This document shows positions 3,834 to 20,783 of a stretch of DNA of 64,000 nucleotides, one piece after another. This DNA comes from a virus. A program made the position numbers and the translations under genes. The notes beneath the pieces are model-generated. The model saw nothing but the letters and a program-made list of their open reading frames with translations, did not search any database and was not told where the DNA came from. Position 1 is the stretch's first letter. Each line of letters opens with the position of its first letter. Location of the stretch: positions 1 through 64,000 of the IMG/VR virus record IMGVR_UViG_3300020160_002696. The stretch is one strand, 5' to 3'.

Positions 3834-4943
3834 ATGATAATAAATTTAAAAAGTCAGACTGACCTTTCAGGTTTCTATGTAGTTTATGAAGGCTCAACAA
3901 ACTTGGAAAAACCAGGATGGTATGGAATTTCACACTTAATGGAACATTTAGTATGTAAATCATTTGACCACTTACAAGAAGATTTTGATAGAGATGGAAT
4001 AGACTGGAATGCATATACTTCATCTAATGAGATAGTATTCTATTTAACAGGACTTGATGAAAAAGTAAACAAATGGAAGAAGAAATTCTTAGACCTATTA
4101 ACAACTTTCAAAGTAACAAAAGAAGAATTTGAGAATGAGAGAAAAATAGTCCTTGAAGAATATATGGATTGTTTTAACGATCAAACACAATCACATATGT
4201 TAAACTTATCAAGAAAGTTATTTAATGATTATGATCCAATTGGATTGAAAAAAGACTTGGAAAATCTTAAATTTATGGATTGTCTTAACTTCTTTGAATT
4301 ACAATATTCAAAACCAACCAAAATTATAAATGTTTCAAAACATAAAGATTTTAATGATAAAGGTATTGACTTTCAAGAAAGACATATTACTAAAAGTTTA
4401 TCGTTTGGTAATCATAAGGTTGATTTAGAATTAAATAATGAATTTAAAGATAAGACATCTATTGCAATATTATCACCTGTAATTGAAGAAGACTTTGCAT
4501 ATGTTAACTTTATAAACTCTATGTTATCATTAGGACTTAAATCTCCTTTGTATCAAGAAGTCAGAGAGAAAAAAGGATTAGTATATTATATACATTGTTA
4601 TCAATCAAGAGTATGTGATAAAGGTATTAATGGTATATCCACTTTAACATCAAACAAAAACTTTAATGAAGTTGTTGAAGCAGTTAAGACTGTAATCACT
4701 AACCCTGATAAGTATTTAACTAAAGAAAGATTTAACCTTGTTAAGGAATACTACCAGGTAAGAAAACAAAAAGATGATATTAATAGATATGGTTCTGTTA
4801 ATCAGTGGATTAATCCAAAAGGTTGGTCTGTGTATGACATCTTAGATGAAGTAACCCTTAAAAAAGTTAGAGAAGTTTATGATAAGTATTATGACTTTGA
4901 TAAATTTTATATTTCATCTGATAAAAAAGAATTTAAAAAATAA
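3834..4943 (+). CDS. M16-family (insulinase/MPP-like) zinc metallopeptidase
   Basis: 369 aa, a single M16 unit of two halves. The inverted zinc motif HLMEH is at residues 34-38 (H34, E37, H38), and the distal ligand lies in ERKIVLEE, with E109 about 71 residues later, the usual spacing. The C-terminal half has the family block LYQEVREKKGLVYYI, whose Arg and Tyr contact substrate in M16 enzymes. Unlike mitochondrial processing peptidase, no second non-catalytic subunit is nearby. M16 enzymes cut short peptides or leader sequences. It lies directly after a leader-bearing protein, which makes a role in leader processing or clearance a fair guess, though only a guess. Confidence 0.85.
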   Translation: MIINLKSQTDLSGFYVVYEGSTNLEKPGWYGISHLMEHLVCKSFDHLQEDFDRDGIDWNAYTSSNEIVFYLTGLDEKVNKWKKKFLDLLTTFKVTKEEFENERKIVLEEYMDCFNDQTQSHMLNLSRKLFNDYDPIGLKKDLENLKFMDCLNFFELQYSKPTKIINVSKHKDFNDKGIDFQERHITKSLSFGNHKVDLELNNEFKDKTSIAILSPVIEEDFAYVNFINSMLSLGLKSPLYQEVREKKGLVYYIHCYQSRVCDKGINGISTLTSNKNFNEVVEAVKTVITNPDKYLTKERFNLVKEYYQVRKQKDDINRYGSVNQWINPKGWSVYDILDEVTLKKVREVYDKYYDFDKFYISSDKKEFKK

Positions 4944-7815: not shown

Positions 7816-10800
7816 ATGAATACATTTTCATCAACAAATATAATACAAAAAAACATAATTACCAAACCTTATCTTTTAACAACAGAAGAATTAACTCAAA
7901 TAGGTTCTGGTATTAATCTAGTAGGATATGATTTTTTAAAAACACTACCTGAACCAATAGATGAGACTATTGTAAACTTTAGATATGGTAATCCAAGTAG
8001 TCCAAGATTATTGAATTGGGTTGAACCATATAAAATAGCTGGTATTAACTATACTTTGTTTTATACAGAAGTAAATTCAGGTTTAAAAGTAAATGATAAA
8101 GTATTTATTATTAATGGTGCATATGATAGCAATTTACTAATTCAAGAAGATAAGTATAAAAAAGGTAGAGATGGATATAAAGTTCTCTTTGTAGATGAGT
8201 GTAGAATTGTATTGGATATAGAATTTAAGGGTTGGCTACCTGCAAATGATTATTCTGAACAACCAGAAGATTTTGATGATTTTATCAAAGTTTATTATAT
8301 TAAAGATCAAAATGACTTTATTCATGTCAATAGACAAGTAACTACAAGAGGTCAAATATTTGATTATAAATTTAATAAAAATCAAAATAATATTATATTT
8401 ACTGATATTGATTTTGAATCTATACCACAAGGTAGTTGGGGAGAAACATCAGGTTTGACAGGTTCACCAGGATTCTTTATTAAAGATGGAACATCAAATT
8501 GGATTAATATTAGTAATAATTCTATTACCGGTAATGATTTTATGAATGGCTTGTATTCTATTGCAGCAACTAATTCTAATAACAAAATACTTATATTAAA
8601 TGGTAGTTTTACTTATTCATATTCAAATGGTGTTATTGCTGAATTTAAGGAAGATTCTGTTTATTCTTGGAAATATGATTCAATATCAGGTACTTATAGT
8701 TGGTTAGTTAATGTTAAACATGAAAATAATAATCCACCAATAATTACAAAGTCTAACTTTAGAAGAGGTAAATTTGATGGTAAGTGGAATGGAGGACTTT
8801 ATGGAACTAGTGATGAAAGAATAATATGGAATAGCAAAACTGCAACTTGGAACTCAGGAACTTTATTAAATACAACATGGCAAACAGGTATAATGAATTC
8901 TTTCTATAGTCAACCAAGTAGTTATTTTGCAGAATTTGAATACTCTTTTGCAACTTCTTCAGGTTTCCCTTTTCAAAAAGTTAATAATCCAGATAATAAT
9001 GGTTATGGTTATAACTTTGTTATTAATTCAGACATTCAAAATGCAGTTATAAATAATGGTAATGTTACTAACTCAAAATTAGGAGCAAGTGCAAGTTCTT
9101 ATAATATTGTTGAAGAATATTTAAAAGAAAGTAATATTGTTGATAATTTTATTACAGATGGAATTACAGTAAATAAAGCACTCTTTGATAATTGTAAATT
9201 TATAAATGCAAATATTGAAAATACTGAGATTAGAAATTGTAGGGCAGAAAATTCAAGATTTAATAAAGTTAAATCTGTTAACTCACATTATAAATCTTCA
9301 TTATTTTTAAATTCAAATTATATTAGTGATAACATAATTAAAGTACTTGATTATGATGAGTTTACATATACTACTACTAATGACTCAAATGCAACTCACA
9401 AAGTTTATAAGTTTTATATTAATAAAAGAAGTTATGAGAAGTTCAAATTGAAAGATAGCTTTTATATAAAAGGAATTAAAGTAAATAATAATTCTGGTGA
9501 ACTATTAAACTTCTTTGATACTAAATTTAAAATAGGTCCTTATAAAGAGTATATAGATTATGATTTAGGGGTTGGATTTATAAAATTGGCAGTTGAATAT
9601 AATGCATTTATTTCTACACCTAAAGAAAATGAGTATAGATATTCAGTTGATAATACTGGAAATAAATTAGAAGATATTAAGGGTAAAGATTATTATTCAG
9701 TTGATATATTTGTAAAACAAAAATTTGAAGAAACAGGATTTGGTTCTGGGAATATAGATTATATAACATCAAACTCAGGTATATTCAATGATACATTTTT
9801 AGGAACTGGTATATTAGATTTCTCAGAAGCTTATATTGTAAACTCAGATTTTGAAAGTGGTATATTTGAGAACTCAAATTGGAATAGTGGAAATCATATA
9901 AATTATAGTAATGATAATAATATCACTAAAGATATATTAAATGGTGGTGGTTTTTATAGTTTAAGTTTAACTGGTACTAATAGTATTTCATTTTCTAACA
10001 CAATATCAATTGAAGGTATTGCAAGTGAAGTAGATTATGATTATTTGGGAACTGGTAGTGTTGTATTTTTAAATGCAGTTGATTATGATACAAGAGGAAA
10101 AGTTACAAGTTTTGTAATTGATAATCCAGGTTCTCTTTACACTAATGGTACATTTAGTACAAGTGGAGGTTCAGGAACAGGATTAACAATAAATGTTACT
10201 GCATCTACTATTGGAGCTGCTTTTGAGGTAGAACTTATACCTGATGGTGATGTTAATAATTATTATTATGCAAGTAGTGCAGGTGGTGGTTATACTACAA
10301 GACAAACTACTGGTGGATCCGGAACAGGATTAGTAGTGGAAATAATAGTAAGTAATAATAGTCCTCATTTTATTACAGATGTTACAATTTTAAATCGTGG
10401 TTCTGGTTATAATATAAATGATGAATTAAATATCTCTTTAGTTTCTATTAGTGGTGTTGATAATGAAGGTCCTATAAAAAAATTAAAAATTACAAGTATA
10501 TTAGATGGTGGTGTCTTAGTTAGCTCTACACAATCATTTCAAGGATTAGGTTATCAGATAAATGATATTATTACAATAAATGGTGGTAACTCTAATGCCC
10601 AAATAAGAGTAACTGGTGTTACTGGTTCACTAACAAGATTACCTGATGCATATAAAATTACAAATCACCAAATTACAGGAACAAATCAAATAATTGATTT
10701 AGAATCAATATATACATTTCCTAATTTATTGGAAAATGGATTGTTCCTAACTATGGGAGCTCAGAATAAATATGGTTATTTACATAGAACTAAGTTTAAT

Positions 10801-13206
10801 AAATCTAGACTTATAACAGGTATATTTAAAAGAGCATATATAGTAAACTCACTATTAAAAGATGAGAATTTTGATGTTAGTGATAAAGATTTTAACAATA
10901 TTAAAAAAATAAAAAATTTAATTTTTGTAGATACTATATTTTCTAATAATTCAAATATTCTATCTAAGGCAACTTATATGAATTCATTTTTTGTAGGTGG
11001 TAATGATATATGGGATAATGGTATATTTTATGATTCTATTTGGAATGGAGGAAATTTTAAAAATGGATTAGTAAAAGAATCAATTTGGGTAGATGGTATA
11101 TTTAGTGATGGTCTATTTTATAACTCAAGAAGTTTTAATAATATAGGAGGAACTAATTATAATCAAGATATAAAAACAAGATATTATAAAAGTGGTACTG
11201 AATCTAATGCAAGATTTTCATGGCAAAATGGTACATTTTTAAATGGTGAATTTTATAAAAGTGATTGGGAAAATGGAGTATTTAATGGTGGTAAGTTTTA
11301 CTATTCTAAATTTTATAATGGTGTATTTAATAATGGTGTTATAGGTGATAAATCAATTCCTATAGATGATACTTGGTTCTATAATGGAACTATAAATTAT
11401 GCAGTTGTAGAAAATTCTAAAATTGTTTCTCAGAAGTATAATGGTATTTCAAATTCAGTTATTACTTGGAACAATGGTATATTTAATTCTGGAGTTTTTG
11501 GTACAAATGATATACAAGGTGTAGTTAATACTGCTACTTGGAGTTATGGTATATTTAATGGTGGTGAGTTTAGAAATAAAGCAAAATGGAAAGATGGTAT
11601 ATTTAATGGTGGTAAATTCTTATCTAACTATGGATTAAATTTACCAGATAATTCAACAAATAAAGAAGATTACTCTTGGGAATATGGTATATTTAATGGT
11701 GGTGAGTTTGGTAATGCAAGCACTACAATTAATTCAAATTGGTTTGATGGTGAATTTAATGGAGGTCAATTTAAAGGAAGAGTTTGGAATAATGGTATAT
11801 TCTCATTTGGAGAATTTTTAGGAAGTGGTGGTATTGCAATTGGTGGAACACCATCATTTGTATCACAATCCAATCCTGGTATATTTGTAAACTCATATAA
11901 TTTTCCACCAACTGGTTCAACTACAAGAAGATATTATGGTTTATGGAGAAATGGTTATGTAACTGATATTAAAGATAAGTATATTACAGATAGAAAATTA
12001 TATACTGATATTAAAAGGTCAAGTGATACTACTAAAGTTGTCAATAAAGCTATCTTAAAAAATATGCTTTGGGAAAAAGGTATATTTTCACATCCAAGTG
12101 GTGAGATGATTAACTCAGTTTGGTTGGATGGAACATTTGAAAGTGGTAGATTTTTATCAAGTTCATTTAATCCTTATGTAACAAGAAATGGTGTTAATAG
12201 ATTTAATTTTAGTGATACTTGCTCTTGGAAGAATGGTATATTTGATGGTGGTGAGTTTAATATATCTACTTGGGAAAATGGAACATTTGTTTCAGGAACT
12301 GCAGTAGGTATGAAATGGAAAAATGGTATTGTTAATTATATGAATGCCTATAATGTATTCTGGGAAGATGGTTTATGGAGAAATGGTAACTGGAATGGTT
12401 CTTATTTTAACTTAACTAAAACAGGTTCAGTTATTGATGATTATGCATTACAAGTTCTAAACAATGGCATGACACTTGGTGTTACATCATCATCTTTACA
12501 TGTTTGGAATATATTTCATAATGAATCATTAAGTGATTATACACAATCTAATACAACAGGATTTGTATTTTCATCCAATACTAATGATGATAGTCCACCT
12601 GCTTGGAGTTCAAGTAGTACTTTTAGTGAAGTTGGATTAACACCTACAACCTCTTCAATTACTATAGTATGGGATCCAATATTTTGGATTGTTAATGATA
12701 ATAGTGATAGATTAGGTACAGATATATCTATAAAAGTTTTATTAACAAGTAATATAAATGATTTAATTAGTGGAGAATGGCAGTATAGTATAGATAATAT
12801 AAACTGGGATAGTTTTGCAAGTGTAACTACAACAGATAATATATATTATAATATGGCATTAGGAGATAACTATTTTAGGATTGAAGATACTATTACAATA
12901 GGACTTAGTTTAAATATTATATATTCTAATGTATTAAAATATACAAGAGAATTAAGTACTTTATATAATAGTTTTAGTGTTATTGTAGGTGCAGCAAATT
13001 GTGTATTTGGTCAAATATCTTTTTCATCTGCATATCAAGAAATTCTTTATTCAAGTTCATCTGTATTAGCAATTGGTACAATATTATATACAGATACTAA
13101 TCTTACAACTACAACAAATGTAGGAACAATAAAAACTGGTTCAATTATTTATGATTTGAGTTCTGGTGAAATTGTTGATATTTATTCTGTAGGTACTACT
13201 TGTTAG
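7816..13206 (+). CDS. Giant virion protein with Trp-Asn-Gly repeats (1796 aa)
   Basis: 1796 aa. Much of the protein consists of short repeats of the type W-x-x-G-x-F-x-x-G-x-F (for example WNNGIF, FNGGEF, WENGVF, WSYGIF), sparse near residues 315-355 and 675-690 and dense from about 1065 to 1535. These behave like MORN or pentapeptide beta-solenoids, in which each unit is one turn. Around 730-970 is a Gly/Ser-rich beta region. The N-terminal 300 residues and last 260 lack repeats and probably anchor it. Size and its row with the Hint protein, another giant and the tail-collar protein point to a baseplate or tail-fibre component. It has paralogues at 14686 and 42787. Preceded by a TATATATA tract 28 bases upstream of ATG. 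Confidence 0.8.
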   Translation: MNTFSSTNIIQKNIITKPYLLTTEELTQIGSGINLVGYDFLKTLPEPIDETIVNFRYGNPSSPRLLNWVEPYKIAGINYTLFYTEVNSGLKVNDKVFIINGAYDSNLLIQEDKYKKGRDGYKVLFVDECRIVLDIEFKGWLPANDYSEQPEDFDDFIKVYYIKDQNDFIHVNRQVTTRGQIFDYKFNKNQNNIIFTDIDFESIPQGSWGETSGLTGSPGFFIKDGTSNWINISNNSITGNDFMNGLYSIAATNSNNKILILNGSFTYSYSNGVIAEFKEDSVYSWKYDSISGTYSWLVNVKHENNNPPIITKSNFRRGKFDGKWNGGLYGTSDERIIWNSKTATWNSGTLLNTTWQTGIMNSFYSQPSSYFAEFEYSFATSSGFPFQKVNNPDNNGYGYNFVINSDIQNAVINNGNVTNSKLGASASSYNIVEEYLKESNIVDNFITDGITVNKALFDNCKFINANIENTEIRNCRAENSRFNKVKSVNSHYKSSLFLNSNYISDNIIKVLDYDEFTYTTTNDSNATHKVYKFYINKRSYEKFKLKDSFYIKGIKVNNNSGELLNFFDTKFKIGPYKEYIDYDLGVGFIKLAVEYNAFISTPKENEYRYSVDNTGNKLEDIKGKDYYSVDIFVKQKFEETGFGSGNIDYITSNSGIFNDTFLGTGILDFSEAYIVNSDFESGIFENSNWNSGNHINYSNDNNITKDILNGGGFYSLSLTGTNSISFSNTISIEGIASEVDYDYLGTGSVVFLNAVDYDTRGKVTSFVIDNPGSLYTNGTFSTSGGSGTGLTINVTASTIGAAFEVELIPDGDVNNYYYASSAGGGYTTRQTTGGSGTGLVVEIIVSNNSPHFITDVTILNRGSGYNINDELNISLVSISGVDNEGPIKKLKITSILDGGVLVSSTQSFQGLGYQINDIITINGGNSNAQIRVTGVTGSLTRLPDAYKITNHQITGTNQIIDLESIYTFPNLLENGLFLTMGAQNKYGYLHRTKFNKSRLITGIFKRAYIVNSLLKDENFDVSDKDFNNIKKIKNLIFVDTIFSNNSNILSKATYMNSFFVGGNDIWDNGIFYDSIWNGGNFKNGLVKESIWVDGIFSDGLFYNSRSFNNIGGTNYNQDIKTRYYKSGTESNARFSWQNGTFLNGEFYKSDWENGVFNGGKFYYSKFYNGVFNNGVIGDKSIPIDDTWFYNGTINYAVVENSKIVSQKYNGISNSVITWNNGIFNSGVFGTNDIQGVVNTATWSYGIFNGGEFRNKAKWKDGIFNGGKFLSNYGLNLPDNSTNKEDYSWEYGIFNGGEFGNASTTINSNWFDGEFNGGQFKGRVWNNGIFSFGEFLGSGGIAIGGTPSFVSQSNPGIFVNSYNFPPTGSTTRRYYGLWRNGYVTDIKDKYITDRKLYTDIKRSSDTTKVVNKAILKNMLWEKGIFSHPSGEMINSVWLDGTFESGRFLSSSFNPYVTRNGVNRFNFSDTCSWKNGIFDGGEFNISTWENGTFVSGTAVGMKWKNGIVNYMNAYNVFWEDGLWRNGNWNGSYFNLTKTGSVIDDYALQVLNNGMTLGVTSSSLHVWNIFHNESLSDYTQSNTTGFVFSSNTNDDSPPAWSSSSTFSEVGLTPTTSSITIVWDPIFWIVNDNSDRLGTDISIKVLLTSNINDLISGEWQYSIDNINWDSFASVTTTDNIYYNMALGDNYFRIEDTITIGLSLNIIYSNVLKYTRELSTLYNSFSVIVGAANCVFGQISFSSAYQEILYSSSSVLAIGTILYTDTNLTTTTNVGTIKTGSIIYDLSSGEIVDIYSVGTTC

Positions 13207-13230
13207 AATATAAAAATAAATAATTAGATA

Positions 13231-14646
13231 ATGTCAAATATAATAAACTTAACTTGGAATGGTGCAACTGATGACAATGGTATATCAGGTTATCAAATTC
13301 AATGGAGAACATCTACAACATCACCTTGGTCTCAACCAATTTTAGTTAATCATAATCCTAATTCTCCAGGAAACAATTTAATATCTGGTGGTGGTAGTTA
13401 TAGTCATACTATAACTCAAGTACGTGATCATACATTTAGAATAAGAATAATAGATAGTGTAGGTCAATTTAGTGGTTATAAAGAAATTTCAGTACCTGTT
13501 GATAGTTCCACTATATTAATTTCAAGTCAAGGTATAGCACTTGGAAACAATTTAGTATGTACTTCAAATGCATTAAATCCAATAAATCCTATATTACTTA
13601 AAGATAATGGTGTAATAACTAGTACAATAACAGATACTTTAACATTTGTAAAAAATGTTGATGATAGTACATTTGATGGACAAAACAGATTTTGGAGAAT
13701 ATTATTGAATACAATAAGTTATAAATGTAAAATAGAACCATCAGGTAAGATTGTATCACATGAACAATGTTCCTCTAATATTAGAACATTTAATATATCA
13801 AGTCAAGGTTATGATTCAAATATAACAAATGGTCAAATATGTGTAGCAGACTTAAATAATACAATATATTTCAATAATGAATTACAAATTGGTACTATAG
13901 TTTATAATACTTTGAATGATAATGGTACTTTATCAGGTCCATTTATTGGTATTAATAGATATTATTTAATTAGTGATAATGATTTTTACTATATTATTCA
14001 AATACAAAATAATGGTAGTGTATCATCTATTCAAGATTATACTGCAGTCTGTCAGTTAGATGATCCAAATAATGTTATTGTTACTTGTTGTTTTGTAAAA
14101 GGAACTAAAATAACAATGTTTGATTATACAACTAAAAATATTGAAGATGTTAAAATTGGTGATATTGTAATAACTTATAATGAAGAAACTAAATTACAAG
14201 AACCAGGTGAAGTAACAAATATAGCAAATCCTGTAAAAAGTAATATAGTTGAATATGAATTATCAAATGGTGTGTTAATAAAATCAACTACTTGTCATCC
14301 TTATTGGGTTGTTAATAAAGGTTGGTCATCATTTAATAAATCATTAACTAAAGAATTGTATGATTTTAATGTAGAACAAATAGAAGAGAGTGATGTTTTA
14401 CTTACTATAGATAATAAAGAGGTTGTTGTTGATAAAATAACTGAACTAATAACTAAAGAAGTTGCTACATATAATTTAGAAATATTGGGTAATCATACAT
14501 ATTATGCAAATGGTATTTTAGTTCATAATAAAACTGCTGTTCCTCCTGCACCAAACAGGTATGATGAATTTGGTAATCAAACATCTGCTTGGACTACATG
14601 GAATAACTTGTATGGTACTACAGCAACTTGTTATGCAGAACCATAA
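13231..14646 (+). CDS. Virion-module protein with FN3-like domain and self-processing Hint (intein-like) domain
   Basis: 471 aa. Residues 1-90 look like a fibronectin type III domain (NLTWNGATDDNGISGYQIQW). A Hint domain spans about Cys287 to Asn433: the start CCFVKGTKI with tandem C286-C287, IEDVKIGDIV, the block-B TTCHPYW (353-359, His356), and the end block YYANGILVHN at 424-433. In inteins and Hedgehog proteins the first Cys makes a thioester and the final His-Asn cleaves the C-side bond. Here residue 434 is Lys, not Cys/Ser/Thr, so ordinary protein splicing is unlikely; cleavage or ligation as in bacterial intein-like domains is more probable. A 38-aa tail follows. It lies between two giant repeat proteins, suggesting a tail or baseplate part. 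Confidence 0.82.
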   Translation: MSNIINLTWNGATDDNGISGYQIQWRTSTTSPWSQPILVNHNPNSPGNNLISGGGSYSHTITQVRDHTFRIRIIDSVGQFSGYKEISVPVDSSTILISSQGIALGNNLVCTSNALNPINPILLKDNGVITSTITDTLTFVKNVDDSTFDGQNRFWRILLNTISYKCKIEPSGKIVSHEQCSSNIRTFNISSQGYDSNITNGQICVADLNNTIYFNNELQIGTIVYNTLNDNGTLSGPFIGINRYYLISDNDFYYIIQIQNNGSVSSIQDYTAVCQLDDPNNVIVTCCFVKGTKITMFDYTTKNIEDVKIGDIVITYNEETKLQEPGEVTNIANPVKSNIVEYELSNGVLIKSTTCHPYWVVNKGWSSFNKSLTKELYDFNVEQIEESDVLLTIDNKEVVVDKITELITKEVATYNLEILGNHTYYANGILVHNKTAVPPAPNRYDEFGNQTSAWTTWNNLYGTTATCYAEP

Positions 14647-14685: not shown

Positions 14686-17600
14686 ATGCAAAACTCACAA
14701 TCAACATTCTATGATAGAAATTCTTCTCAAAGTTGGGAATTAGTATTAAATAGTGGTATAACTAGAAAACCAAGATATTTAGAAATTCCATTATATATAA
14801 ATAGTGAATTTATAAATGTTAATTTATATAATCAAAAGAAGAACTATCAATTTTTAACTACTATTAAAGGTGGATCTGCATCTACACTGGATATACAACT
14901 GAGTGATCCTTTTAAGGCAGGTTTTGTAAAACAATTATCAATTTTGGAAAATAGTGAAGTACAATTTTATACTTATGCAAATCCAATTTCATCTGAAAGT
15001 TCTGTTAATATAATTAAATATGGTGCACTAGATACATTTACATCAAGTTATATAACTGCATCATCAATTAGAGAGATAGACTTTTTAATAAATGGTTATA
15101 GAGAGTTTAGATACTTAAATCTTCCCTTAAATGATGAAAGTCAACCAAATGGATGGTGTTATGAAATTGATTCTATTTCAAATACTGGTTTATATAAATG
15201 GTACTTTTCATCAACATCAAGTGTTATACCTCCACTTTATTCAACTTTTGGTTCAGGATTAGAAGAAGTTTCACTTAATAATGATTATATAGCAACTTTA
15301 ATTGATTATGATTATTTCAATTTAGATTTTACTTTTAATTTCACTGGTGGTAATTCAAATGATAAAATGGAAGCATTTTTGGTAAATCAAAATGACTTAA
15401 AATTGGGTAGATCATCTTGGGGTAATCCAATTAACTTTAAAGTAAGTGGTTTATCTGGTGTGACTAGTTCACTTAATACAATTGCTACTTTTAGTCAAAT
15501 AAATTTAGCAGCTACAAATATTAATGGAACTAAAAGATATTTGGTTTTTAGACCAAATATGTCACCTTTGCCAAGAACTACAACATATGTTGCGAATATA
15601 TCAATTGTAAGTTTAGTTGGTGGATATAATCCATTAAACAATCTACAAGTAGTACCTGCAACATCTTCTACAACTAGCAATATAGATATTAATATAATAG
15701 ATTCAGTATATAATTTTCAATCTGTTTCAAATGGTGTAACATTTAGTTTGGCATCAAAAATAGGAAATGGTTATTTTAAAGCAGGTATTTGGGAAAATGG
15801 AGTTTGGAATAATGGTTGGAGAGATGACACAGTAGTGGCTGATTTTGATGATATTTACTCTGCATTTCTTTATGCATATGATGTATCTTGGAAAATAAAA
15901 ATTAGTGGTTCAAAGGCTTCATGTAATTCATTTAAAGTTGGTGATAAAGTAGCAATTGGTAATATTATAGCAATTGATATAAATGAAAATAGAAATCTAT
16001 TAAGAGATTATTATAATATAACTGAGATATATATAAATCCTGATAATTCTGGAACTAATTGGATTGAAGTTAGTTTAAATACTACATTTCCATATAGAAG
16101 AATTGAAAAAGATTCATCTAATCACAAAATTAAGATAACTAAAAACATTTGGTTATCAGGTGCATTTTTTAATGGTTATTTCTCAGGAGTTTGGAATAAT
16201 GGGTTATTTAAAGGTTATCCTAAAATTACAGAAATGTTTGATACTCATTGGATTGATGGTTTTTTTAATGGAGGACATTTTAACTCTACTTATCCTGATT
16301 ATTATTTTACTGATATAGAATCTACTGAAAATTGTCAAGTTAGTAATATTACTTTAGTATTTGGTACTGCAACACCTCCAAGAACTTCTGGACATAATTT
16401 ACTTCCAGGGGATTATATAATAATTGAAAAGGATATATCTTATATTCCTAATTCAAATAATACTACATCAACTGCTATATTATATAATCCAGAATATAAT
16501 GGTATTGCTAAAGTTTTAGGAGTTAATGGAAATAATGTTGTTGTTGATAAGAAACAAAATCAGATATTAGCATTTCCAGAAGCGGGTAAAGTTACTAGAT
16601 ATACTGCATCTAGTGTTATACAAAACTTTAAGTTTTATGATACTAATAGATCATTATTAAAATCAAATGAAAGTTCAATTTCATCAAGTATATTTAGTTT
16701 TAATTCTTGGATTGATACTAATTATGATACTACAAGATCAGTTACATTAGGTAGAGATTTTAGGTCATATGAACCACTAACAAGTAAATCTGTAAATAGA
16801 AATAATTTGTATGGTTATCCTACATATGATGTACTTTCAAGTGCATCACGTTTTAGAAATTCTTTTGACTTAAATTATGGATTGTACAAGTTAGGAACTA
16901 AATATAAGTTATTTACTGATTTTATTGGTGATGGTTCTACATTTAATGAACCATTTGATCCAAAACTAGATAATATATCTAATTTTTACAATGCTGGTTG
17001 GACTTTTTCAACTAAACCAAATCGTTCTACTGATTTAACATTTAATAGATCTGAGGCAATTATATCGGCAGATAGTGCTTCTATTATTTCTACCACAATA
17101 CAAGATTATATAGATGCAGGTGTTACAGGAAATGAATTGTATTTAACCGCAACTAACTCAGGTGCAATATTAAATAATGATAAAATTAATATAGCAAAAA
17201 CAAGATATAGTGTAGTAGAGTTTGATGTTGTTACTTATAGTATTGCAAATTCTAAATTTACACAAACTAATCAAAGGTTATATGATTTAGAAACTGAACT
17301 TAGTGGTCCACCTTTAAATCTTGCAACACAATCAAATATTTCAGTTGATAATTTAACACTTACTGCAAGTAATATTTTCACATTTGATGTTGGTTCACAA
17401 GGAACTTCAATGATTCCAGAAAATAACTTCTTTGATGGATTTGATGGTGAAGTTTGGTCTGTTGATAAACAATCAGATGGTAAGATTATAGTATCTGGTA
17501 ATTTTACTGAATATAATGGTTCACCAACACCAAAACCTAAAATTTGTAGAATAGATAATGGTGTATTAGATATGTCATTTAATCCTGATATTAATGATTT

Positions 17601-20106
17601 TAATCCTACATATATAGATTTTATAAAAGTGTTGGTTGTTAAGGATTATTTACCAATGTTTGATAAGATATTTTTAATAATAAATTATACACAATTAATG
17701 TCAGTAAATAGTTATCCAAATGTTTTAGGAAGGGTTATTAGATTAGAACCAGATGGTACATTTGTAGGTACAATATCAAATTTACAAAAAGAATTTAACT
17801 CAAAAGTAACAGATATTGCAGTAAGGCCTACAGATGGACTTGTTGTAATAGTTGGTCTTTTTACAGCATTCTACTATAATAGTACTAATGTATTCTTTTT
17901 AAATAAAATGGCCTTATTTGAATATAATACTTCAACCAATCTTTCTTTTTCAGGTTATAACTTATATAGTGGATCAAGTAGTGAAACTAGAGGATTTTCA
18001 TTTTTTGATAGTCCTTCTACTATTGCATTTTTAAGTGATGGTAGTATCATAATTGGTGTGGCACCAAAAGAAATAGGATCTGCATCAAATACAAATGCAA
18101 GATCAAAATTTAAGAATAATTCAGGTACTACTTATTATATAAATGGAATTGTTAAATTAAACACTAATTCAACACAGATTAATGTTGATAGTACATTTCT
18201 TACAACTAGTGCAACTAGTACAAATATGAAAGGATTTTCACTACCATCATCTTTTACACTTTTGTCTAATACATCAAAGAATTTTATTAATAGAATAAAA
18301 GTAGATTCATTAAATAGAATTTATGTAGTTGGTAACTTTGCATCTTATAATGATGGAACTCTTCTTAGAACTTGTAAAAATATAGTAAGGTTGAATTCTA
18401 ATGGTTCATTTGATACAACATTTAATACAGGTACAGGACTAAATTCATTTGCATATGATATAAAATTTAGTTCTGATTATAGTATCTCATATATAGGTGG
18501 TGAATTCACCAGTTATAATAATCAACCTTGTGGTAAAGTTATATCAGTTGGTATAAATGGTGTCTTACAGAATACTTATGTTGGTGGTACTCTTAACCCA
18601 TCAACTTCTGTAGTAAGAACTATGGTTTTAAATGGTTCTAATTTAGTAGTAGGTGGAACTTTCTCATCATATCAACAAGTACCAACTACTACTATTACAC
18701 AAACAATAACAACAAGTGAATGTGTTTTTGGATTGTCATTATTACCAGAAGATATTATCAACATTGCTGTTAAAATTTCATTAAATTGTCAAGGTTCTAA
18801 TTTAGAAAATATTACAATTAATTTAAAATCACCAGATAATAAAATTATTTGTTTAAAGAAAAGTAATGTTTCAAATACATCACCACTTAGTTTAGTGACA
18901 GAAACAATATTAACAGACACTGTATTTGATATTTTATCAAATACTCCGCTCTCATCAGGTAATCAACCATATACTGGAACTTTCTCTATGGAAAAACAAA
19001 CTGGTATAGGTACATTAGGATTTGGTGTTTCTAATTCAACAAACATTGAAGAATTAGTAACTACTAATACACTAAATAATTGGACTATTTATATTCAAAA
19101 CGAAAATTCAACTTACCCAATACTAAATAAATGGGAGTTGATTATTAAATATAAGAAATATATAGAAGATGTTGGAATTGAAATAACACCAAGTGTTGAT
19201 TTACCAATTTTACATTTTAATAACCTTAATTTTGAGATTGGATCTCAACCTAGTGGTGATGAAACTATTCCTATTTATAGAAGAATGTCTTATTTACCAA
19301 TAACCCAAAATATTAATCATTTATCAGTTCAAAATTCATTTAGATTTGACTCTATTGAAAAAACATCTGCTGAAAGATATAATGGTTTTGGTTCAAATAC
19401 AATTAAAAAGAAATATGAATATTTCTATAATAAGACTGATTTAATGATGAGTATTCAAGGAAATGGTGATATGGGTGGAAGTCAATCTATGATGGTATTG
19501 GATAATATTAAAATGTATGAAACAGATATGATTCCATTCTTTAAATATTTTGAAGAAGCAAATATCTATAAAGGTATACAAATTCCTTATGAAGGTGTCG
19601 CACCTAATATTGATTATCTAAACTCTGATTTTGTATTTGTTGATAATGTTACAATTGGTATAGATAGTCTTGATAGTTCAATATTGGATAATACTATTAT
19701 TTGTGTACCTAATGTTGTGGTTAGTGCCTCTTCATCAGTAATAGTAACAACTAATCTACCAACAAATATAGCAACATCATCAGTAAGTATAAGTGGTAAT
19801 GTTTCTATACAAGGTAATGTACAATATATTTCTAGTGGACTTTATTTGAGCGAGGGTAGTTTACAAGAAAATTCAGTTGACAATCCTGTTTTTGATGGTT
19901 TTAATTTTAGTAAAAATGAAACTGGATTACTACCAAGTAGAACATATTATGTTCAGGCATTTGCAGTTACTCAAAAGTTTCTAACCATTAATGGTGCTCT
20001 TACACTTGAACCACAAGAGGTTACTAAAGGACAATTTTTTACTTTTTCAACAGATAGATTACCACCTGATTACTCTAATGATTATTCTGGTGATTATTCA
20101 CAATAG
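14686..20106 (+). CDS. Giant virion protein with delta-60 repeats, P-domain and FN3-like end (1806 aa)
   Basis: 1806 aa. Domains in order: an N-terminal beta region; Trp-Asn-Gly repeats near 363-378 and 488-532 (WENGVWNNGW, WIDGFFNGGHF); beta-propeller-type delta-60 repeats from about 920 to 1330 (DGKIIVSGNF, RIYVVGNF, the LDxSFN and FDTTFN signatures); a proprotein-convertase P-domain-like module about 1338-1488 (LENITINLKSPDNK then WELIIKYK); a 1525-1660 region containing YNGFGSN; and an FN3-like C-terminal domain ending in Asp/Tyr/Ser-rich YSNDYSGDYS. Such multi-module layout fits a baseplate hub or long fibre that meets the host surface. The P-domain-like module recurs in the 1925-aa protein, so they are relatives. 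Confidence 0.8.
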   Translation: MQNSQSTFYDRNSSQSWELVLNSGITRKPRYLEIPLYINSEFINVNLYNQKKNYQFLTTIKGGSASTLDIQLSDPFKAGFVKQLSILENSEVQFYTYANPISSESSVNIIKYGALDTFTSSYITASSIREIDFLINGYREFRYLNLPLNDESQPNGWCYEIDSISNTGLYKWYFSSTSSVIPPLYSTFGSGLEEVSLNNDYIATLIDYDYFNLDFTFNFTGGNSNDKMEAFLVNQNDLKLGRSSWGNPINFKVSGLSGVTSSLNTIATFSQINLAATNINGTKRYLVFRPNMSPLPRTTTYVANISIVSLVGGYNPLNNLQVVPATSSTTSNIDINIIDSVYNFQSVSNGVTFSLASKIGNGYFKAGIWENGVWNNGWRDDTVVADFDDIYSAFLYAYDVSWKIKISGSKASCNSFKVGDKVAIGNIIAIDINENRNLLRDYYNITEIYINPDNSGTNWIEVSLNTTFPYRRIEKDSSNHKIKITKNIWLSGAFFNGYFSGVWNNGLFKGYPKITEMFDTHWIDGFFNGGHFNSTYPDYYFTDIESTENCQVSNITLVFGTATPPRTSGHNLLPGDYIIIEKDISYIPNSNNTTSTAILYNPEYNGIAKVLGVNGNNVVVDKKQNQILAFPEAGKVTRYTASSVIQNFKFYDTNRSLLKSNESSISSSIFSFNSWIDTNYDTTRSVTLGRDFRSYEPLTSKSVNRNNLYGYPTYDVLSSASRFRNSFDLNYGLYKLGTKYKLFTDFIGDGSTFNEPFDPKLDNISNFYNAGWTFSTKPNRSTDLTFNRSEAIISADSASIISTTIQDYIDAGVTGNELYLTATNSGAILNNDKINIAKTRYSVVEFDVVTYSIANSKFTQTNQRLYDLETELSGPPLNLATQSNISVDNLTLTASNIFTFDVGSQGTSMIPENNFFDGFDGEVWSVDKQSDGKIIVSGNFTEYNGSPTPKPKICRIDNGVLDMSFNPDINDFNPTYIDFIKVLVVKDYLPMFDKIFLIINYTQLMSVNSYPNVLGRVIRLEPDGTFVGTISNLQKEFNSKVTDIAVRPTDGLVVIVGLFTAFYYNSTNVFFLNKMALFEYNTSTNLSFSGYNLYSGSSSETRGFSFFDSPSTIAFLSDGSIIIGVAPKEIGSASNTNARSKFKNNSGTTYYINGIVKLNTNSTQINVDSTFLTTSATSTNMKGFSLPSSFTLLSNTSKNFINRIKVDSLNRIYVVGNFASYNDGTLLRTCKNIVRLNSNGSFDTTFNTGTGLNSFAYDIKFSSDYSISYIGGEFTSYNNQPCGKVISVGINGVLQNTYVGGTLNPSTSVVRTMVLNGSNLVVGGTFSSYQQVPTTTITQTITTSECVFGLSLLPEDIINIAVKISLNCQGSNLENITINLKSPDNKIICLKKSNVSNTSPLSLVTETILTDTVFDILSNTPLSSGNQPYTGTFSMEKQTGIGTLGFGVSNSTNIEELVTTNTLNNWTIYIQNENSTYPILNKWELIIKYKKYIEDVGIEITPSVDLPILHFNNLNFEIGSQPSGDETIPIYRRMSYLPITQNINHLSVQNSFRFDSIEKTSAERYNGFGSNTIKKKYEYFYNKTDLMMSIQGNGDMGGSQSMMVLDNIKMYETDMIPFFKYFEEANIYKGIQIPYEGVAPNIDYLNSDFVFVDNVTIGIDSLDSSILDNTIICVPNVVVSASSSVIVTTNLPTNIATSSVSISGNVSIQGNVQYISSGLYLSEGSLQENSVDNPVFDGFNFSKNETGLLPSRTYYVQAFAVTQKFLTINGALTLEPQEVTKGQFFTFSTDRLPPDYSNDYSGDYSQ

Positions 20107-20138: not shown

Positions 20139-20783
20139 ATGGCAATACCTACATATACAAGAGAACAATTAATAACATTAATATCAACAAAATTGGCAGG
20201 TTCTCCTAATACAATAGATGCAGTTGAACATAGAGAACTTGAAACTGCTATAGTAAATGCTATTTATGGACAAATAGGTGATATTAAAGAAATTTCATGT
20301 AATACTACTTATATAACAAATAACTTTAAAACAGGTACTAATTTAATTGATGAAGGTTTGGGACTTCCATCAGGTGAAAGATATGGTTGGGCTATATGTA
20401 ATGGTAAAAATGGAACAGTAGATAAAAGAGGTAATGTTTCTATAGGTTATGATCCTTCAAGTTATGCAACACTTGCTTCTACTCAGTCAGGTGGTGGTAC
20501 TACACCTTATAAACAAGGTGGTCTAAAAACAGTTACATTAACAATTGATCAAATGCCACCACATAGTCATACACGTCCCAGAGGTAATGATAATAATTTA
20601 GGTGGTGGAACAAATCAGTATGGTTGGCAAGCAATTGATGATTTGTTTGGTAGCTATGCAACAAACACCACAGGAGGTGCTGGATCTACATCAACTGGTA
20701 ATACAACTGGAGGTTCAACCAATGCGCATGAAAACATGCAACCTTACATAGTTACTTTATTTATTCAGAGGATTCCTGTTTAA
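20139..20783 (+). CDS. Phage tail-collar domain protein (short tail fibre type)
   Basis: 214 aa. The C-terminal two thirds is a tail-collar domain: GWAICNGKNGTVDKRG, then DQMPPHSH with the His pair used in T4 gp12-type fibres to bind metal, and the closing NAHENMQPYIVTLFIQRI. The N-terminal 60 residues are helical and likely a trimer stalk. T4 gp12 binds host surface sugars irreversibly; this is the most likely receptor contact in module 1. Its last 23 bases overlap the 3' end of the convergent dnaJ-like gene, an unusual tight junction. Confidence 0.85.
   Translation: MAIPTYTREQLITLISTKLAGSPNTIDAVEHRELETAIVNAIYGQIGDIKEISCNTTYITNNFKTGTNLIDEGLGLPSGERYGWAICNGKNGTVDKRGNVSIGYDPSSYATLASTQSGGGTTPYKQGGLKTVTLTIDQMPPHSHTRPRGNDNNLGGGTNQYGWQAIDDLFGSYATNTTGGAGSTSTGNTTGGSTNAHENMQPYIVTLFIQRIPV

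Follow-up and report, generated by a model that had tools for sequence, protein, structure and literature searches.

A candidate self-cleaving, A-type BIL-like Hint domain followed by lysine in an accessory tail-region protein of an uncultured phage

Bacterial intein-like (BIL) domains have so far been studied in bacterial proteins, and the A-type is reportedly exemplified by a domain of Clostridium thermocellum (2lwy) in work by Amitai (2003), Dassa (2004) and Aranko (2013). The chemistry described for A-type BIL domains comprises an N-terminal thioester, cleavage through Asn cyclisation and a possible ligation (PMC4031507; also PMC5874633, PMC7765530, PMC7664689). When the +1 nucleophile is missing, the freed C-terminal amine can attack the N-terminal thioester, which amounts to splicing by aminolysis, and cleavage products outweigh splicing in the known members (PMC4031507). 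In phages, S74 chaperones detach from tail fibres by themselves (PMC7824862).

Here we analyse a Hint domain encoded in the tail-fibre region of a 64,000-nt stretch of phage DNA (the window). Hints in phages as such are not new, since many phage proteins in UniProt are automatically named 'Hint domain containing protein'. Protein searches of 50,697 sequenced phage records with the window Hint and two relatives returned mostly helicase, terminase and polymerase inteins, along with some unnamed proteins; the Hint family with Lys or Arg at +1 described below is thus known almost exclusively from uncultured phages. In the mostly open-access literature searched, no phage-virion BIL was found, and the Lys/Arg+1 rule, the tandem arrays and the structural-protein setting of phage Hints appear undescribed there. 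Our preferred reading, to which we give a probability of about 60%, is that the window domain cleaves itself to mature the tail-associated protein that carries it, an accessory and variable protein whose C-terminal tail can be exchanged.

Assignment of the Hint domain

The Hint-encoding ORF (13231-14646, 471 aa; plus strand, as are its parts and the two giant ORFs flanking it) comprises a weakly FN3-like start, two weak ~90-aa repeats, the Hint domain and a 38-aa tail. The original prediction had called the N-terminal part FN3-like, of which a weak hint is left in residues 1-95 (13231-13515; Pfam fn3 E 0.045, below the cut-off). Residues 96-285 (13516-14085) hold two diverged repeats of ~90 aa that are 30% identical to each other (self-BLAST E 0.005). 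These repeats are Cys-bounded, and the end of the upstream ORF is similar to them at a non-significant level (E 0.24). The N-extein as a whole was assigned to no family, and its AlphaFold2 model is of low confidence. The tandem Cys286-Cys287 that the original prediction placed at the start of the domain is indeed encoded at 14086-14091, the second Cys being the catalytic Cys1 (Cys287, 14089-14091) and the first occupying position –1 (Cys286, 14086-14088). The domain proper thus spans residues 287-433 (14089-14529) and ends in His432-Asn433 (14524-14529); the predicted interval 14086-14529 covers residues 286-433 exactly, and Lys434 (14530-14532) opens a tail of 38 residues (14530-14643).

In phmmer searches of the PDB, residues 287-433 matched the BIL domains 6y75/6tmm (E 9e-8) and 2lwy (E 6e-5). 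NCBIfam TIGR01443 (intein C-terminal region) scored above its cut-off; Pfam Intein_splicing was below cut-off, as was Pfam PT-HINT PF07591 (25 bits, cut-off 27.7). An AlphaFold2 model built from 54 aligned sequences reaches pLDDT 91-98 across the Hint domain, with low confidence elsewhere in the protein. Foldseek ranked Tetrahymena BIL2 at the top (6y75, E 3.6e-12; 6y75/6tmm, TM of target 0.86-0.91, 1.4-1.6 Å) and C. thermocellum 2lwy beside it (TM 0.90, 1.5 Å), ahead of inteins (TM mostly 0.6-0.86); Hedgehog 1at0 scored 0.73, and many Hint structures were found at probability 1.00. On the strength of this model we are confident of the Hint fold. The further claim of a bacterial intein-like domain lacking a canonical +1 nucleophile holds as well.

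By its features the domain would be classed as an A-type BIL, as it displays each BIL feature that can be checked from sequence and fold: Cys at position 1 (C287), a C-terminal His-Asn (H432-N433), a +1 residue other than Cys, Ser or Thr (Lys434) and a variable flank in a non-conserved protein, for which the closest relative, L001, has a different tail and two complete relatives have no gene. With the C. thermocellum A-type BIL it shares the fold (TM 0.90, 1.5 Å), Cys1, the His-Asn end, the lack of Cys/Ser/Thr at +1 and variable flanks; the phage Hints differ in residing in tail-type proteins, in having a basic +1 residue as the norm, in forming arrays of 2-4 and in that many of the proteins end directly after the +1 Lys. 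Tetrahymena BUBL1 BIL2 (6y75, 6tmm) is the solved structure closest by both sequence and fold, but it belongs to a eukaryotic locus with other flanking proteins. The highest cellular identity (48%) is to the Hint of an Aquimarina mytili YD-repeat-like protein (L086), which ends in VHN-K plus an 11-residue tail yet is bacterial rather than phage-borne. B-type BILs have no His-Asn motif, whereas HN is present here.

In sequenced phages, the nearest matches include class 1 inteins of helicases, which would fit a canonical intein or selfish element. We nevertheless consider that explanation highly improbable: the +1 residue is Lys, whereas the helicase intein of Vibrio phage K389, taken as a control, carries Cys there; no homing endonuclease is present; and the domain sits in a separate accessory gene, not at a conserved site of an essential, conserved enzyme. 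The Hedgehog C-terminal autoprocessing domain (1at0) has the same Hint fold and Cys1 thioester, and a Hedgehog-like transfer would pass the Cys286 thioester to an external nucleophile, so that residues 1-286 would become covalently bound to, for example, a surface molecule or a lysine on an adjacent virion protein. The residues for an N-terminal thioester are intact, and the Hint lies at the extreme C-terminus in many relatives, as it does in Hedgehog. The fold is nearer to BIL (TM 0.90) than to Hedgehog (0.73), however, and only the 38-residue tail follows, with no sterol-recognition region, no involvement of cholesterol, no acceptor-recognition region and no known acceptor, which makes such a transfer improbable. 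Likewise, the suggestion that part of the protein is attached to a sugar on the host surface or to another tail protein finds no support, as no sterol-recognition-like or acceptor domain stands behind the Hint.

A polymorphic-toxin HINT was rejected, the PT-HINT score being below cut-off and the tail holding no toxin-like or other domain. The best Pfam label for the ORF is AXH (ataxin; E 1.6e-12), an identity that we rejected as cross-detection of Hint-like sequence, as solved AXH chains match weakly (E 0.002-0.02); no AXH chain occurs among the best 50 Foldseek matches to the window Hint. Separately, AXH, a module of ataxin-1/HBP1, scores above cut-off on several phage Hints (window residues 288-392, L028, L010 and others; up to E 7e-38), hinting at either AXH-Hint kinship or an over-wide model.

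Catalytic residues and the +1 position

The catalytic set of the window Hint is complete, with C287 in block A, T353xxH356 in block B (T353-T-C-H356, 14287-14298), H422, H432 and N433. C287, H356, H432 and N433 are invariant in the 54 aligned Hints, which were matched over full length, so that this invariance describes complete members only; Thr353 is found in 41/52. Between the window and L001, dN/dS is 0.37 for the Hint and 0.83 for the middle region, the former value indicating purifying selection on the domain. Both the invariance and the selection speak against a folded but chemically silent Hint that would act as a structural or linker domain, an explanation we judge unlikely even though tandem arrays do retain Hints in which Cys1 or HN has been lost.

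Redox locks have been reported for some inteins. Among 92 phage Hints, 13% have Cys at position –1, compared with a background of 0.8%, and because of this enrichment Cys286 is a possible disulfide partner of Cys1 and the Cys286-Cys287 pair a possible lock of the same kind.

As to the other end of the domain, the original prediction held that the Lys after Asn433 blocks canonical splicing. Lys434 does preclude the canonical branched intermediate; splicing as such is not barred, since A-type BILs can splice by aminolysis (PMC4031507). Searches of uncultured virus contigs with patterns leaving out the +1 position yielded about 200 related Hint domains from uncultured phages, some in tail proteins and some in others. 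After redundancy removal at about 60%, 92 viral Hints have both Cys1 and HN; in these the +1 residue is Lys in 49 and Arg in 12 (66% Lys/Arg), compared with a Lys/Arg share of 1-15% at +2 to +10 and 9% inside the Hint domain. Among cellular relatives (n=24), +1 is Lys in six and Arg in none, and among Hint domains without Cys1 one of eight has Lys/Arg at +1. AT-richness was rejected as the source of Lys+1, given a Lys/Arg share of 82% in loci of 40-50% GC (11 loci) and of 1-15% at +2 to +10; in loci above 50% GC the share is 43% (7 loci). On a poorly resolved tree, the Lys/Arg label of the phage domains requires 17 changes versus 43 in shuffles, which points to an inherited, retained trait rather than 61 independent gains. 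The Lys+1 of the window Hint is thus a family signature, Lys/Arg being the norm in this large phage group. In the Magnetospirillum BIL, exchanging the Tyr at +1 for Cys reportedly switches splicing on.

At most five residues remain after the domain in 16 of the Lys+1 cases, and Lys is the last residue of the protein in 11. Arg+1 occurs at internal positions only (terminal or short, K24/R0; internal, K25/R12; Fisher p 0.002, uncorrected for kinship), and the tolerance of Arg argues against a strict side-chain nucleophile. A speculative scheme, which we consider rather improbable, has the N-terminal thioester resolved on the α- or ε-amine of the +1 Lys, so that lysine-capped or isopeptide-branched/crosslinked phage proteins would arise and tandem arrays would release short inter-Hint peptides. 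If true, phages would be using Hint chemistry, with a novel end result, to build their proteins.

A variable gene in the tail module

The Hint gene is flanked by giant fibre-like ORFs of 1796 aa upstream (7816-13206) and 1806 aa downstream (14686-20106), in keeping with the tail-module setting originally described. The downstream protein has DUF5122/delta-60 repeats, and a Gp10_C/tail-collar-like ORF (20139-20783) follows the pair. It is solely these neighbouring genes that suggest a virion location for the window protein. Elsewhere in the window, an M16 (insulinase-type) peptidase gene (3834-4943) lies beside a D12 adenine methyltransferase and is 78-79% identical in the two large relatives described next.

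The window virus, itself uncultured, is related to very large phages. Its upstream giant protein shares 48% identity over residues 1-1574 with a protein of LR745206 (634,780 bp) and is also related to one of LR756502 (642,428 bp). In both of these complete genomes the two giant genes are adjacent, with gaps of about 30 bp, and Hint matches are absent; the Hint is therefore dispensable for the fibre. Across further relatives (L226, L227, L231, L233-L241), the giant fibre genes are neighbours in some and a fused ORF in others: they are adjacent in L231 and L233, and a single ORF matches both in L234-L241, of which L239-L241 look like one virus.

The closest relative, L001 (G001, 92 kb), encodes a protein that is 80% identical up to residue 435; past its first residues the 38-aa tail is unalignable. 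This tail is replaced relative to L001 between DNA flanks that are both ~89% identical, with similarity returning just 3' of the stop codon (AAAAATAATCAAAGTGATAAAC). At the giant-gene junction the window has one gene and L001 has two, the additional ORF, of 182 aa, lying within L001 6880-7981. Blocks of 82-91% DNA identity between the two are broken at 12663-13210 and 17527-18107, and the last ~220 aa of the upstream giant protein are variable, the match to L001 breaking off at 12662. Both segments are replaced relative to L001 and form variable spots of the tail module, inside or next to the genes for the giant fibres. The window Hint gene is thus an optional insert, accessory and variable.

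Predicted processing and host proteins of phage Hints

If the window domain self-cleaves as we propose, Cys287 would take over the acyl group of Cys286 in an N-S shift to form a thioester, and His432 would assist cyclisation of Asn433, freeing the tail at Lys434. Because the +1 residue offers no group for a canonical branched ester, the 52.5-kDa protein would as a rule be cleaved at one or both ends, giving residues 1-286 (31.5 kDa), the Hint (16.7 kDa) and the tail (4.2 kDa). Cleavage at a single end would leave residues 1-433 (48.2 kDa) or the Hint plus tail (21.0 kDa). Minor splicing may occur through attack of the Lys434 α-amine on the thioester, with a 35.7-kDa product. The domain would thereby mature a tail-associated protein once, much as S74 chaperones do for tail fibres, with the sequence behind the Hint exchangeable. 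Cleavage, the presence of its products in virions and the maturation role are what we infer here, and the S74 comparison is a working analogy that implies no kinship: the Peptidase S74 intramolecular chaperone likewise cleaves itself and sits at or close to the C-terminus of fibre proteins, but it has an unrelated fold and Ser/Lys chemistry. Proteins ending in HN-K would free one residue only, and tail release therefore cannot be the general purpose of these domains.

Alternatively, BIL-type aminolysis may mainly splice, joining residues 286 and 434 into one 324-aa protein and removing the Hint. The full set of catalytic residues is retained, as this requires, and VrlC-like relatives have two large exteins whose counterparts in phages without the Hint make up one continuous protein, a pattern that rejoining predicts. 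Specifically, VrlC/DUF4815-type proteins carry one or more Hints directly N-terminal of a DPLAQTF domain, with a phrog_358 match up to the Hint, and proteins of this type are without a Hint in the Kyanoviridae phages Mosig and Melnitz. Predominant splicing nonetheless seems doubtful for the window protein, as cleavage is dominant in known A-type BILs (PMC4031507), the window protein has a short C-extein that has been replaced among close relatives, and the C-extein is Lys alone in many relatives. With self-cleaving maturation, phage tail assembly would have two kinds of self-processing domain, S74 chaperones and Hints. The large set of uncultured-phage Hints, with its basic +1 residues, arrays and pairs of proteins with and without a Hint, offers directly testable material on the purpose of BILs, and could supply protein engineering with small self-cleaving domains that have an unusual +1 residue.

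Other relatives place the Hint in further contexts, including C-terminal Hints behind baseplate-hub-like N-domains (weak PF09931) in some, a C-terminal Hint in a tail-fibre-like protein that has collagen-like repeats (L021) and two Hints directly ahead of an S74-like chaperone domain (L014). The VrlC-type, baseplate-hub-like and S74-like settings, being virion contexts, count in favour of the proposed maturation domain. ATP-grasp-like N-domains (YjfC/YgiC, glutathione synthetase) are predicted in front of 1-4 Hints (Foldseek E 7e-6, with a TM of just 0.44 and a large rmsd), so the hosts of phage Hints need not all be virion proteins. These proteins often finish with HN-K as the last residue. 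Fusions of this kind occur in L027, L028, L037-L039, L041-L044, L068, L153, L162, L165, L184, L187 and L189, and a predicted peptide-ligase-like fold adjoining self-cleaving domains is an odd pairing.

At least two near-complete Hints are present in 50/130 viral Hint proteins and four in 12/130 (counts before redundancy removal), and tandem phage Hints are mostly spaced by 0-5 residues. Some relatives are without Cys1 or the final HN, and some members are therefore partly inactive. The arrays of L002 and L010 suggest a division of labour, in which the first Hint is without Cys1, the middle ones are complete and the last has Cys1 without HN. In these arrays, Cys-containing linkers (e.g. KFPFCGEGPR) have a predicted cut site on either side and may be released. 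An array of five near-complete Hints is found in a protein of at least 2455 aa from a Thermoplasmata archaeon MAG (L088).
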